Assembly (NCBI RefSeq): GCF_014639655.1
Contig: NZ_BMGB01000001.1
Location: forward strand, 2,124,882 to 2,188,881
Reading direction: 5' to 3'
From: Conyzicola nivalis
GTDB taxonomy: Bacteria > Actinomycetota > Actinomycetes > Actinomycetales > Microbacteriaceae
DNA length: 64,000 nt
The notes under the pieces are model-generated. The model did not search any database. It was not told the DNA's origin and saw nothing but the letters and a program-made list of their open reading frames with translations. Each line of letters starts with the position of its first letter. Within the stretch, counting starts at the first letter, position 1. The translations under genes were made by a program, and so were the position numbers. This document shows positions 32,836-37,403 of the stretch, piece after piece.

Positions 32836-32848
32836 TAGATTGGGCACA
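32836..32848 (+). promoter_or_regulatory. leaderless -10 box of upp
   Basis: TAGATT at 32836-32841 ends six bases before the ATG at 32848; no Shine-Dalgarno lies between. Confidence 0.48.
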
Positions 32849-33483
32849 TGCGAGTTCACGTAGCCGACCACCCGCTCATCACGCACAAGCTGACCGTGCT
32901 GCGCGACAAGACCACGCCGTCGCCCACGTTCCGTGCGCTCGCCGAAGAACTCATGACGCTGCTCGCCTACGAGGCGACGCGCAACGTGCGCACCGAGGTC
33001 GTCACGATCCAGACCCCGGTCGCCGAAACCCAGGGTCTCGCGATCAGCACCCCCCGACCGCTCGTCGTGCCGATCCTGCGCGCGGGTCTCGGCATGCTCG
33101 AGGGCATGGTCAAGCTCGTGCCGACGGCCGAGGTCGGCTTCCTCGGCATGGTCCGCAACGAAGAGACCCTGCAGCCCGAAACCTACGCCGAGCGCCTGCC
33201 GGACGACCTCTCGAACCGCCAGTGCTTCGTGCTCGACCCGATGCTGGCGACCGGCGGCTCGCTCATCGCGGCGATCGATTTCCTGCTTGCCCGCGGCGCC
33301 AAGGACGTGACGGCCGTCTGCCTGATCGCGGCACCCGAGGGACTCGCGGCCGTCGAGAAGGCCATGGAGGGTCGCGGCGACGTCACCATCGTGCTCGGCG
33401 CCCTCGACGAGCGCCTCAACGAACTCGGCTACATCGTGCCCGGTCTCGGCGACGCCGGCGACCGCTTGTACGGCCTCGTCTGA
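32848..33483 (+). CDS. upp: uracil phosphoribosyltransferase
   Basis: A 211-residue type I PRTase that makes UMP from uracil and PRPP. The PRPP loop is [21 protein letters not shown], the N-terminal family marker is [12 protein letters not shown], and the uracil-binding C-terminus is [16 protein letters not shown]. It is divergent from tadA, with 60 bp between them. Confidence 0.93.
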
Positions 33484-33559
33484 GAGAGCGAAACCCCCAG
33501 CGCATTGTGAGTTTCGGGGCGTAAATTCACGGGTGACGTGCCAAGAAAGGTCGCTCGCC

Positions 33560-34612
33560 GTGAAGAAAAACATCCAGCGCTGGATCCCCGCCGCGGTCGT
33601 GCCCGCGGTCATCATCACCGCCGCCGTCGCCGTTCCCGCCGTGGCGAACGCCGCACCCTCACTTCCCGAGAAGAGCGCGCAGCAGCTGCTCGAACTCGTC
33701 GCTGAAAGCCGTGGCACCCCGTTCTCCGGAACGATCGAGCAGACCTCGGCGCTCGGCCTGCCCGACGTCTCCGCTCTCTCCCCCGCGGGCGGCGGCGACT
33801 CCGGATCATCCGCCCTCGAACTCCTGTCCGGCTCGCACACGGCGAACGTCTTCGTCGGCGGGCCCTCCACTCAGCGCGTCCAGCTGCTCGAGGGCTTCGC
33901 CGAGCGAGACGCGATCCGCAACGGCGACAGCGTCTGGCTCTACGACTCCGACGCGAAAGAGGCCACCCACGTCACGGCGAGCGCGCCGGCCGACCTCCCC
34001 GCCGGCCCGACGCTCACCCCGTCGGAGGCCGCCGAGAAGCTGCTCGCCGCGGTCGGCACATCGACCGAGATCGAGGTCGTCGACACCGCTCGAGTCGCCG
34101 GCCGCGCCGCCTACGAACTGCGGCTCACCCCCGACGACGCCGACACTCTCGTCGGCTCCGTGGTGCTCAGCGTCGACGCGGAGACCGGCCTCCCCCTCGC
34201 GGTGAGCGTGACCGCCGAGGGCCAGAAGTCCCCCGCTTTCTCAGTGCGCTTCAGCAAGATCGACTTCGACGCCCCCGACGCGAGCGTCTTCGAGTTCGCG
34301 CCGCCGAGCGACGTGACGGTCGAAGAGGAAACCCTCGACGGCGACACCCTCGGTGCCACACTTCCGGATGCCGCGGCCACCGACCACCCGCGCCCGACGA
34401 TCGTCGGCGACGGATGGGACGCCGTGGCCGTGTTGCCCGCCGGCGCACTGCCCGCCGACCTGTCCGGCGCCGGCCTGGAACAGCTGACGACCGAGGTCAA
34501 CGGCGGACGCCTGCTCACCACGAGCCTCGTCTCGGTGCTGCTCGCCGACGACGGCCGGGTACTCGTCGGCGCCGTCACCCCGCAACTGCTCCAGGCCGTC
34601 GCCGCGCAGTGA
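33560..34612 (+). CDS. exported LolA-like lipoprotein-carrier fold protein
   Basis: A 350-residue secreted protein. A signal peptide occupies about residues 1-31 (KKNIQRWIPAAVVPAVIITAAVAVPAVANAA). The following region has the repeated antiparallel strands of the LolA/LolB-like fold (SGTIEQTSALGLPD, VWLYDSDAKEATHV and AFSVRFSKIDFDAPDASVFEF). GTG 33560 is favoured because AAAGG precedes it. GTGA overlap couples it to the ABC ATPase. It may bind lipid or sense envelope state. Confidence 0.75.
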   Translation: MKKNIQRWIPAAVVPAVIITAAVAVPAVANAAPSLPEKSAQQLLELVAESRGTPFSGTIEQTSALGLPDVSALSPAGGGDSGSSALELLSGSHTANVFVGGPSTQRVQLLEGFAERDAIRNGDSVWLYDSDAKEATHVTASAPADLPAGPTLTPSEAAEKLLAAVGTSTEIEVVDTARVAGRAAYELRLTPDDADTLVGSVVLSVDAETGLPLAVSVTAEGQKSPAFSVRFSKIDFDAPDASVFEFAPPSDVTVEEETLDGDTLGATLPDAAATDHPRPTIVGDGWDAVAVLPAGALPADLSGAGLEQLTTEVNGGRLLTTSLVSVLLADDGRVLVGAVTPQLLQAVAAQ

Positions 34613-35550
34613 GTTCCGCCGAACTCGCGATCGAGACGCACTCCCTAAGCAAGAAGTTCGGCCACCAGGCCGCCGTCTCCAACCTCGCCCTCGCTGTTCC
34701 GCGCGGGTCGGTGTTCGGCTTCCTCGGGCCCAACGGGTCGGGAAAAACAACCACGATCCGCATGCTGCTCGGTCTCTCGGCGGCGACCGCCGGGGAGATC
34801 GCCGTTCTCGGACGCTCGATTCCGGATGCCGCGGCTCACGTCCTCCCGCGGGTGGGCGCCCTCGTCGAGGGGCCGGCCTTCTACCCGTTCCTCTCCGGCC
34901 GCGAGAATCTGCGGCGGTTCGACACGGCCAACCGCCATGCGCCGTCGTCCACCCGGTCCGCCCGGGTCGAAGCTGCTCTCGACCGCGTTGGTCTGAGCCA
35001 CGCCGCGGGCAAGGCGGCTCACGCCTACTCGCTCGGCATGAAGCAGCGCCTCGGTCTGGCGAACGCCCTGCTCACCCCGCGCGACCTGCTGGTGCTGGAC
35101 GAGCCCACGAACGGCCTCGACCCGCAGGGCACCCGCGAGGTGCGCTCGCTCATCCGCTCGCTCGCCTCCGACGGCACCACGATCTTCCTCTCCAGCCACC
35201 TCCTCGCCGAGGTGGAGCAGGTCTGCAGCCACGTCGCCGTGATGAGCACCGGCCGCCTCGTCGCGCAGGGCTCGCTCGACGAACTCCGGGCACAGGGTTC
35301 CGAGCGGGTCGCGGTAAACACGCCCGACGTCGCCGAGGCCCGGCGTGTGTTCGCTGTGCTCGGGCTCTCCCCCGATTCCGACCGCGACGACCACCTGAGC
35401 GCCGAACTTCCCCGCGGTGTCCCCGCCGAGGCCGTGACAGCGGCCCTCGTGCGTGCCAATGTGCGCGTGCGCGGCCTGACCGTGGAAGGCGCCTCGCTCG
35501 AGGACCGCTTCGTCGCCCTCACCGGGGAGGGCTTTGATGTCGCAGAGTGA
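34609..35550 (+). CDS. ABC transporter ATP-binding protein
   Basis: A 313-residue ATPase. Walker A is GPNGSGKTTT, the signature is YSLGMKQRLGLANAL and Walker B is LLVLDEPTNGLDP. The C-terminal extension of about 90 residues is as in drug/lipid or antibiotic exporters (CcmA/DrrA type). It starts at GTG 34609, overlapping the LolA-like stop, and overlaps the permease gene by 14 bp. Confidence 0.9.
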   Translation: MSSAELAIETHSLSKKFGHQAAVSNLALAVPRGSVFGFLGPNGSGKTTTIRMLLGLSAATAGEIAVLGRSIPDAAAHVLPRVGALVEGPAFYPFLSGRENLRRFDTANRHAPSSTRSARVEAALDRVGLSHAAGKAAHAYSLGMKQRLGLANALLTPRDLLVLDEPTNGLDPQGTREVRSLIRSLASDGTTIFLSSHLLAEVEQVCSHVAVMSTGRLVAQGSLDELRAQGSERVAVNTPDVAEARRVFAVLGLSPDSDRDDHLSAELPRGVPAEAVTAALVRANVRVRGLTVEGASLEDRFVALTGEGFDVAE

Positions 35551-36388
35551 GACCCGCGAGACGGCGTCCTCGCTCGGGCTGGCGCTGCTCGGCTCCGAAC
35601 TCCGGGTACTGTTCCGCCGTCGCCGCACTTGGGCGATGCTCGCGGCCCTGGCGGCCGTTCCCGTGCTCATCGCGGTGGCGGTGCGGCTCTCCGACTCCCC
35701 CGACACCCCGGGCGACGGACCCGCGTTCCTATCGAACATCACCCAGAACGGCCTGTTCGTCGGGCTGACCGCCCTCATCGTGTCGGTTCCGCTCTTCCTG
35801 CCGCTCACCGTGGGTGTCGTCGCCGGCGACACCATCGCGGGCGAGGCAAACCTCGGCACGCTGCGCTACCTCTTGGTCGCGCCCTCCGGACGCGTTCGGC
35901 TACTGCTGGTGAAGTTCGCGGGCGCCGCCGTCTTCTGCGTCGTGGCGACACTCGTCGTTGTGCTCGTGGGAGCCACCATCGGCGCCGTCCTGTTCCCCAT
36001 CGGTCCGGTCACGCTGATCTCGGGCGACACGGTCGGTGTCGGCGGCTACGCGCTGCGCGCCGCCCTCTTCGCCGCCTACGTGAGCATCTCCATGCTCGGG
36101 CTGAGCGCGATCGGGATGTTCATCTCGACGCTCACCACGGTGCCCGTCGGCGCGATGGCCGCGACGATCGTGTTGTCGGCGGTGAGCCAGATCCTCGACG
36201 TATTGCCGCAGCTCAGCGCAATCCACCCCTGGCTGTTCAGCCACCACTGGCTCGGCTTCGCCGACCTGCTGCGCACCCCGATCGACTTCACGGTGTTCGG
36301 CGAGAACGCCCTGCTACAGCTCGGCTACATCGCCGTTTTCGGCGCCCTGGCCTACGGACGATTCGCCACCAAAGACATTCTGACTTGA
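35537..36388 (+). CDS. ABC-2 type permease
   Basis: A 283-residue protein with six predicted spans (RTWAMLAALAAVPVLIAVAV, NGLFVGLTALIVSVPLFLPLTVG, FCVVATLVVVLVGATIGAVL, YVSISMLGLSAIGMFIS, others). The GEANLGTLRYLL stretch is typical of ABC-2 permeases. It pairs with the ATPase immediately upstream; with the LolA-like protein it forms a three-gene unit. Cargo unknown. Confidence 0.85.
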   Translation: MSQSETRETASSLGLALLGSELRVLFRRRRTWAMLAALAAVPVLIAVAVRLSDSPDTPGDGPAFLSNITQNGLFVGLTALIVSVPLFLPLTVGVVAGDTIAGEANLGTLRYLLVAPSGRVRLLLVKFAGAAVFCVVATLVVVLVGATIGAVLFPIGPVTLISGDTVGVGGYALRAALFAAYVSISMLGLSAIGMFISTLTTVPVGAMAATIVLSAVSQILDVLPQLSAIHPWLFSHHWLGFADLLRTPIDFTVFGENALLQLGYIAVFGALAYGRFATKDILT

Positions 36389-36414
36389 CACACCGCGTAA
36401 CCATGAAACATAGT
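36385..36414 (+). promoter_or_regulatory. sigma-70-type promoter of the cysteine leader ORF
   Basis: TTGACA (36385-36390), an 18-bp spacer, then CATAGT (36409-36414). The predicted transcription start coincides with the ATG of the short ORF at 36422, giving a leaderless mRNA. The -35 overlaps the end of the permease gene. Confidence 0.65.
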
Positions 36415-36421
36415 TGCCCCT

Positions 36422-36490
36422 ATGACTTTCCACGCGCAGACGACCGGCCTCATGCCGTCGAGCGCGATGTGTTGTCGAATGTGCGCCTAA
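36422..36490 (+). CDS. cysteine-rich leader peptide (22 residues)
   Basis: ATG to TAA, reading MTFHAQTTGLMPSSAMCCRM and then C-A-stop. Three of the last six sense codons are Cys (two adjacent). It begins 7 bases after the -10 box and has no Shine-Dalgarno, so it should be read from a leaderless transcript. Known cysteine-responsive attenuators in mycobacteria use leaderless short ORFs with Cys codons near the end. Annotated leader peptides of other actinobacteria also share an SSA-x-C ending. The downstream RNA can sequester the ribosome site of the regulator gene. Confidence 0.65.
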   Translation: MTFHAQTTGLMPSSAMCCRMCA

Positions 36491-36506
36491 CGGCCAACAC
36501 CTCGCC

Positions 36507-36649
36507 GAGTTCAGCTCTTCATCCTTGAGCGCCTGAACTCCCGGTTGTCTCCTTTCATTACGGGGCCATCCTGCACCTCAGCACTACCAAGAAATACCCA
36601 GAAGGAATCACACCCTCATCATTAGAGGCCCTTCACCCCTTTCAAGGAT
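36507..36649 (+). promoter_or_regulatory. putative attenuator: hairpin and anti-Shine-Dalgarno element
   Basis: GAGTTCAG (36507-36514) pairs perfectly with CTGAACTC (36533-36540). Within the loop region, ATCCTTGA (36521-36528) is exactly complementary to TCAAGGAT (36642-36649), the Shine-Dalgarno region of the winged-helix gene starting at 36660. Ribosome stalling at the Cys codons could decide which pairing forms. The mechanism is inferred; the complementarity is directly visible. Confidence 0.55.
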
Positions 36650-36659
36650 CTTCCGACTC

Positions 36660-37403
36660 ATGTCTCTGGCAACTATTGACCGTCCGACCACCTCTTTTTC
36701 GGCTCCTTCCGTTCGTTCGCTCGTCGCGACGAACCGCCAGCCCGAAGCCCCGGCAGCAGACATCCGTGAGGATGCGGCCCAGCCCCGACTGCGCGCCGTT
36801 CCCGCCGGCACCGAGGCTCGCGGCTTCGTCCTCTACGTCGGCCTCGACGAACTGAAGGCCGAACTCGCCGGCACCGACCTCGGCCAGATCGTGGCCCAGC
36901 TGAAGAGCCTCGTCTCCGAGCTGGTACCCACCGCCGAGACCCACGCGGCCGTCGCCCTCGCCCCCCAGGGTGCGGGCGGCCGCGACGTCGACGTGGTGCG
37001 CCTCGCCCTGCAGGATCCGGCCGCCCTAGCCCGCCAGCGCCAGACCCCCGCGGTCGAGGCGAAGCCGCGCGGCGGAGTCGTGATCGACATCTCCCGCAAG
37101 CGCCTGCAGCTCGACGGCGAGACGGCCCCGCTGACCTACAAGGAGTTCGAGCTGCTGCAGTACCTCGTGCTGCGCGAGGGACGCACGATCGACCGCGCCG
37201 AGCTCATCTCGTCACTGTGGAACGCGAACGACGACGAGATCCCGAACGAGCGCACCATCGATGTGCACGTGCGCCGCCTGCGCTCGAAGCTCGGCGCCTA
37301 CGAAGACATCGTGCGCACCGTGCGCGGCGTCGGCTACCGCTTCGACCGTCACGCCGACGTGTCGATCCGCCAGGCGACCACGCCGAGCCCCGACTTCATC
37401 TGA
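36660..37403 (+). CDS. winged-helix transcriptional regulator without a receiver domain
   Basis: A 247-residue protein. The C-terminal OmpR/PhoB-type winged helix covers about residues 135-240 (LTYKEFELLQYLVLREGRTIDRAELISSLW, then RTIDVHVRRLRSKLG and VRGVGYRF). The first 45 residues are low complexity, and residues of about 55-110 form a small alpha/beta domain (RGFVLYVGLDELKAELAG) that is not a CheY-like receiver: no phospho-Asp pocket is visible. It probably senses a ligand or acts constitutively. It is preceded by a cysteine-type leader, suggesting a link to sulfur or cysteine supply. Confidence 0.8.
   Translation: MSLATIDRPTTSFSAPSVRSLVATNRQPEAPAADIREDAAQPRLRAVPAGTEARGFVLYVGLDELKAELAGTDLGQIVAQLKSLVSELVPTAETHAAVALAPQGAGGRDVDVVRLALQDPAALARQRQTPAVEAKPRGGVVIDISRKRLQLDGETAPLTYKEFELLQYLVLREGRTIDRAELISSLWNANDDEIPNERTIDVHVRRLRSKLGAYEDIVRTVRGVGYRFDRHADVSIRQATTPSPDFI

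Follow-up and report, generated by a model that had tools for sequence, protein, structure and literature searches.

The window analysed here is a 64,000-nucleotide stretch of the Conyzicola nivalis genome (contig NZ_BMGB01000001.1, forward-strand positions 2,124,882 to 2,188,881). Within it, a gene for a winged-helix regulator is preceded by a short open reading frame (ORF) that carries cysteine codons near its stop and lies directly behind a promoter. Three hairpins, denoted P2, P3, and P4, occupy the RNA between this leader and the regulator (Table 1). A first-pass annotation had described the promoter, its ATG, the ORF, the 8-bp stem of P2, and the complementarity of ATCCTTGA in the P2 loop to TCAAGGAT at the ribosome site of the regulator, and all of these are present base for base. 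In the whole 3.34-Mb genome, the pattern TGYTGYCGNATGTGY has 1 exact match.

Conservation of the cysteine-codon leader

Orthologous loci were taken as the best 80 of 193 regulator relatives from a scan with one genome per species. The relatives bear mostly Microbacteriaceae names, and some are metagenome-assembled genomes with broader labels. Upstream of the regulator, 78 of the 80 loci have a short ORF ending x-Cys-Arg(CGA)-Met-x-x-stop, located by the pattern TGTCGAATG with one mismatch permitted; it is absent from L065 and L066. The proposal of a leaderless-type cysteine-codon ORF ahead of a winged-helix regulator is borne out by this distribution. With the window counted, all 79 leaders have CGA ATG, always two codons ahead of the stop, and a cysteine codon directly before the CGA (76 TGT, 3 TGC). 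The conservation of cysteine codons that the annotation had put forward as a check is therefore found in this family, and in other families their positions shift.

Several cysteine codons lie near the stop, with three per leader in 55 of the 79, two in 17, four in 3, and one in 4. The mean leader holds 2.7 cysteines and 4.4 internal methionines in 32 residues, and lengths range from 22 to 45 residues. Over 42 leaders of equal length, the ratio of nonsynonymous to synonymous change (pN/pS) is 0.27 for the last six codons versus 0.73 for the first 27. Pfam and NCBIfam searches with the window leader and with three longer ones found nothing, nor did the Rfam covariance models up to E 1 within 36000-37000. 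The leader of L063 contains a tandem expansion, VLMMPVLMMPVLMMPVLMMP, with many extra methionine codons ahead of the cysteine tail.

The promoter is conserved together with the leader. Of the 79 leaders, 66 have a TTGAC element at most 45 nucleotides from the chosen start, 61 have a -10 matching [CT]ANNNT, TANNNT, or GATA[GC]T (GATA[GC]T in 32), and 78 start with ATG. The starts were picked by a score weighted towards ATGAC and the spacing expected of a promoter, which called L063 wrongly. The short ORF stands directly behind the promoter at a spacing conserved by sequence, and the transcript would, judging from this promoter, start at the leader ATG. In several relatives (e.g., L007, L011, L049, and L055), a palindrome (TGCAA-GATAG-TTGCA and variants) is centred on the -10 region and may mark the operator of a repressor.

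Leaders also precede the regulator in two further families, which we take, from the look of the sequences, to be Micrococcaceae (f6) and Brevibacteriaceae (f7). The scan of 85 f6 loci, four of which recur in a second set, gave 43 distinct leaders in which CGA-ATG stands two codons from the stop, once one spurious row of 44 was dropped. Their cysteine codons shift around Arg-Met (CCCRM, CCYRM, CCFRM, CGCRM, CRCRM, CCRRM). A cysteine-bearing short ORF lies before the regulator at 16 of 26 f7 loci (15 of 25 genomes), and three f7 genera have plain polycysteine tails, CCCL, CGCCCCL, and CGCCCCLSIK, each followed by the stop (L130, L131, and L143/L231). The element common to the families is thus the cysteine codons, in f6 beside a stretch able to pair downstream, and not one peptide. 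That stretch has its exact complement, CATTCG for CGAATG, at most 160 nucleotides downstream in 32 of the 43 distinct f6 leaders, beginning 75-89 nucleotides past the stop in 31 of those 32. The codon that follows CGA-ATG seemed to covary with this downstream element in the first f6 sequences (L170); the signal was lost in a larger set (L175, L179, L191), and the idea was rejected. By eye, the leader end CGTTCGCGAC of two f7 loci (L132, L133) is perfectly complementary to a stretch 16-21 nucleotides downstream, and the resulting hairpin starts right after a single cysteine codon.

The fixed C-terminus could also belong to a ribosome-arrest leader, in which x-Cys-Arg-Met-x-x-stop stalls the ribosome on a signal other than tRNA-Cys, such as a small molecule or translation stress. 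The invariant CGA and ATG and the low pN/pS of the tail speak for arrest. However, the invariance is at the codon level, with CGA making up 5.8% of the arginine codons of the regulator genes, which points to the RNA and not the peptide. The residue before Arg-Met varies in f6 (Cys, Tyr, Phe, Arg, Leu, Ser), the leaders found in f7 keep cysteine codons and end otherwise than Cys-Arg-Met, and arrest leaves the sulfur-free regulator described below unexplained. An arrest leader is therefore unlikely.

Of 20 matches to the leader pattern taken from inside or outside the family, seven are leaders of this regulator (L110-L115, L129); the remaining ones are in or near unrelated genes. In family f20 (L120, L121, L122), cysteine-rich frames with CCRMC lie upstream of transporter-type and transferase-type genes, presumably an ATP-binding cassette (ABC) ATPase/permease/amidohydrolase-like set and a glutathione-transferase-like gene. 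A sulfur link for these ORFs was not kept, as the adjoining ABC transporter may serve nucleobases.

Table 1. Features of the leader locus (window coordinates)
Feature	Position	Strand	Basis and remarks
Leader promoter, -35 TTGACA	36385-36390	+	Read from sequence; 18-nt spacer to -10
Leader promoter, -10 CATAGT	36409-36414	+	Read from sequence
Leaderless-type short ORF, MTFHAQTTGLMPSSAMCCRMCA	36422-36490	+	22 codons, stop TAA; ATG 7 bases past -10
Tandem cysteine codons TGT TGT	36470-36475	+	Read from sequence; proposed sensor codons
Invariant codons CGA ATG	36476-36481	+	79/79 leaders
Region 1, tail of the short ORF, UGUGCGCCU	36480-36488	+	RNAalifold consensus, alignment A1; predicted partner of region 2
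Third cysteine codon, TGC	36482-36484	+	Read from sequence
Hairpin P2, perfect 8-bp inverted repeat	36507-36540 (arms 36507-36514 / 36533-36540)	+	Covariation
ATCCTTGA in P2 loop	36521-36528	+	Read from sequence; exact complement of TCAAGGAT, 36642-36649
Hairpin P3, conserved loop	36550-36565 (arms 36550-36553 / 36562-36565)	+	Covariation
Hairpin P4, outer arms GAAGG / CCTTC	36601-36634 (arms 36601-36605 / 36630-36634)	+	Near-invariant pairing
Hairpin P4, inner arms CCTC / GAGG	36614-36617 / 36625-36628	+	
Region 4, Shine-Dalgarno AAGGA of regulator	36644-36648	+	Read from sequence; inside TCAAGGAT
Winged-helix regulator	36660-37403	+	PF00486, E 3.9e-22; 247 residues, 0 Cys, 0 internal Met

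RNA structure between the leader and the regulator

Hairpins P2 and P3 covary in an alignment of 24 sequences of the window's family (A1), in which 95.6% of the cells of the three hairpins are paired. Changes on both sides occur in 9 of the 18 pairs: 4 of the 5 scored in P2, 3 of 4 in P3, and 2 of 9 in P4. Such changes fill 58 cells versus a shuffled mean of 21, with 0 of 500 shuffles as high, and sliding the partner destroys the signal. The 8-bp stem of P2, part of the region for which covariation had been suggested as a check, thus shows compensatory changes in relatives. P4 is paired in 98-99% of cells. In the window, 2 of the 4 pairs of P3 are G-U.

In the switch proposed by the first-pass annotation, the Shine-Dalgarno sequence is occluded by pairing with the P2 loop (ATCCTTGA) until ribosome stalling frees it. 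Among the 24 relatives, the 8-nucleotide match occurs in the window, L002, L003, L004, and L050 only, and matches of at least 7 bp number 5 versus 2.4 by swapping partners (p 0.024). In the other 19, however, the match is shorter than 7 nucleotides, and the mean length is not above that of swapped partners (p 0.11). A universal anti-Shine-Dalgarno switch in the P2 loop was rejected on this clade restriction, and the ATCCTTGA/TCAAGGAT pairing, which is not supported as it was originally stated, is a doubtful account of the locus. More likely candidates are other pairings between the tail of the upstream ORF (uORF) and elements downstream of it, which vary from clade to clade.

One such pairing emerges from the RNAalifold consensus. 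Region 2 is the 5' strand of P4 and region 3 its 3' strand. In the predicted alternative, the uORF tail pairs with region 2 (96.9 and 97.2% of cells paired) and region 3 pairs with the Shine-Dalgarno sequence. This folding is incompatible with the lower stem of P4, which gives regions 2 and 3 two mutually exclusive foldings. It lacks covariation support because both foldings are near-invariant in the 24 sequences.

The consequence of covering the leader tail was computed over a set from which 21 near-duplicates had been removed, with 68 of 80 loci computed and 12 left out (longer than 260 nucleotides or core not found). With the tail masked, the ribosome site opens more than it does for shuffled tails in 29 of 51 family loci versus about 8 expected. 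A locus passes if at most 1 of 12 shuffles is as good, and because the loci are related the comparison falls short of a strict test. A perfect complement of the uORF core GTCGAAT is present at 24 of 76 loci, where it begins 8-10 nucleotides ahead of the start codon; the window is not among them. A universal duplex of the core with the regulator start region was rejected by duplex energies; it is seen in subclades. Base pairing may explain the invariant CGA-ATG in f6 and in part of the window's family, though not in the window.

The leader might act on transcription instead, with the cysteine codons controlling Rho-dependent or intrinsic termination in a C-rich, G-poor region. Such transcriptional attenuation has the same sensor as the translational reading preferred here, with another output step. 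Consistent with it, positions 36545-36650 contain 37 C and 16 G per 106 bases, tail masking has little effect on the ribosome site in f6 loci, and Rho has been proposed for mycobacterial cys leaders (PMC1262725). However, visual inspection shows no U-tract terminator, the Shine-Dalgarno sequence is itself paired in the alternative consensus folding, and tail masking opens that site in more than half of the family loci, as counted above. Termination is a genuine possibility, if the less probable output.

The regulator and its sulfur content

Profile searches place a PF00486 winged helix at the C-terminus of the regulator and no Pfam family on its N-terminal part. A receiver-like N-terminal domain joined to a GlnR DNA-binding domain was not found; beside PF00486 there is a sub-threshold GerE match. 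The AlphaFold2 model has a mean predicted local distance difference test (pLDDT) score of 79.8, with the first 40 residues near 50. GlnR and PhoB are the solved structures nearest to the DNA-binding domain, with 47% identity to the S. erythraea GlnR domain. The regulator is therefore like GlnR/PhoB-type proteins in this domain and differs in its N-terminal part, which is modelled at lower confidence. A separate protein elsewhere in the same genome (L235) is presumably GlnR-like. Open-licence papers yielded no description of the leader or the regulator.

At E<=1e-30, the regulator is matched in 80 of 80 f6 genomes (32 genera) and 41 of 41 f7 genomes sampled, with the f7 matches often covering the DNA-binding domain alone. 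Over the class, 23 of 296 genomes have a match, and it is found in 14 genomes of the window's family. Promoters in f6 (L110-L114, L152-L174, among others) carry the repeat TRTTAC-N14-TRTTACG. Of 12 f6 genomes, 11 contain it, each as a single copy a short distance upstream of the regulator gene. This distribution would fit autoregulation only, and no regulon followed from it. GTTAC/GTCAC-like repeats also precede some of the leaders in f7 and in the window's family. Repeated TGTTACG, tried as a further binding site of the regulator, has no match in this genome.

The regulator is almost devoid of sulfur. The 76 family orthologues with a called start have 0 cysteines and 1 internal methionine in total, and 75 of them have neither, which gives 0.05 cysteines plus methionines per 1000 residues. 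The leaders have 222 per 1000. On the same scale, the neighbouring gene that we take to be upp has 33 (60 copies), values for ten PF00486 paralogues encoded in this genome run from 8.4 to 40.7 (their starts being approximate), and the 39 coding-like ORFs of the window, regulator counted, have a median of 18. The folded part of the regulator is similarly poor in f6 (2.3; 32 distinct sequences) and f7 (2.5; 15 distinct), and full-length counts with guessed starts are above these values, at 4.3 and 4.7. This line of evidence goes beyond the first-pass annotation and does not depend on the leader. Of 60 family genomes, 53 lack PF01507, which we take to hold APS/PAPS (adenylylsulfate and phosphoadenylylsulfate) reductase and CysD, and the present genome is one of the 53. 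Among the 56 near-complete genomes, 49 lack it; it is present in 14 of 14 control genomes. Most genomes of the family are therefore probably unable to reduce sulfate by the usual route. The sulfur-free regulator, the sulfur-rich leader, and the missing PF01507 provide independent evidence for the sulfur-state role that had earlier been raised as possible. Proteins low in sulfur have been described as a feature of sulfur assimilation pathways (PMC5513900, citing Baudouin-Cornu 2001).

The opposite sulfur content of regulator and leader also bears on whether the feature senses amino acids at all. Strong sequence conservation is what a short peptide with a function of its own, or an mRNA element bound by a protein, would show as well. 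However, the length of the leader is variable and cysteine codons recur at this gene in three families. Together with the contrast in sulfur, these points make a non-sensing feature very improbable.

A proposed cysteine-responsive attenuator

The locus is probably a variant of the mycobacterial polycysteine attenuators, one that responds to cysteine and controls a sulfur-starvation regulator. When charged tRNA-Cys is plentiful, ribosomes would pass the leader, its 3' tail would pair with downstream RNA, and the ribosome site would be shut. When cysteine, and possibly methionine, is short, the ribosome would stall at the cysteine codons and cover the tail. The downstream hairpins would then refold, the ribosome site would open, and the regulator would be made, so that starvation would induce it at the level of translation and, through it, perhaps a sulfur regulon. 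Being nearly without sulfur amino acids, the regulator could be made during the very shortage it reports. The earlier interpretation thus survives in its conserved leaderless-type cysteine-codon ORF and its sulfur role, and gives way in the ATCCTTGA/TCAAGGAT switch.

Several observations weigh against this attenuator. The invariant CGA-ATG exceeds what a cysteine counter requires, and the leaders of four Clavibacter have a single cysteine codon. The pairing of the tail with P4 shows no compensatory change in the 24 sequences, visual inspection fails to pick out P3 and P4 in several clades, and the window RNA folds no better than shuffles (z -1.10 and -1.17). Across 101 loci, duplexes of the core with positions -60 to +12 are in general no better than shuffles (mean z -0.29), with p<=0.05 at 15 loci. 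Tail masking passes in 1 of 17 f6 loci and gives no opening of the ribosome site in the window (free-energy difference, ddG, -0.6), which leaves unsupported, for the window RNA, the earlier idea that a change of pairing frees this site. Two more coding-like ORFs of the window are sulfur-poor, at 2.8 (33533-34612) and 5.5 per 1000. By the patterns used, many f6 and f7 loci have no such leader. That leaders occur in only part of these families, and that f7 matches are partly of the DNA-binding domain alone, lowered our confidence slightly.

Whether the three families, all of the same order, share one dedicated sulfur-starvation switch is an even call. Such a switch would place a sulfur-rich sensor peptide and a sulfur-free transcription factor on one transcript, with low charging of tRNA-Cys, and perhaps also of tRNA-Met, as the inducing signal. 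If so, ribosome stalling would reach a transcriptional regulon and not a single operon. The switch would explain how a shortage of reduced sulfur is sensed in a family mostly without the PF01507 sulfate-reduction enzymes, and would give a function to a regulator found across all sampled f6 and f7 genomes. In addition, the regulator itself would be a clear-cut case of a protein evolved to do without the very element whose scarcity it reports.

Among the closest known systems are the leaderless polycysteine ORFs of mycobacteria, which reportedly act as cysteine-responsive attenuators and precede cysteine-metabolism operons (Canestrari et al. 2020, Mol Microbiol 114:93). The leader described here is like them in its leaderless-type start, in the cysteine codons of a short ORF, and in the response to cysteine limitation expected downstream. 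It differs in preceding a sulfur-free transcription factor, in the invariant CGA-ATG after the cysteine codons, and in the covarying hairpins. Because the downstream gene is a winged-helix regulator in place of cysteine-metabolism genes, the locus is filed as a variant and not a member of this class. Candidate cys leader peptides were predicted in 2005 in Mycobacterium, P. acnes, and B. longum (PMC1262725). These too are short actinobacterial ORFs with runs of cysteine codons near the stop, unlike the present leader in lying upstream of cys operons or cbs. The uORFC-8-2 motif, upstream of cysS in Rhodobacterales, likewise combines tandem cysteine codons in a uORF with conserved RNA structure (PMC8632094); it differs in ending in an intrinsic terminator and controlling a tRNA synthetase.

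In the window, the -35 hexamer overlaps the TGA stop codon of an upstream ABC permease gene. A sulfur-poor protein (33533-34612) and ABC transporter genes (together 33533-36388) separate the presumed upp (32848-33483) from the leader. Some relatives (L012, L016, and L017 among them) and the f7 loci L130-L133 have the end of upp just before the leader promoter.

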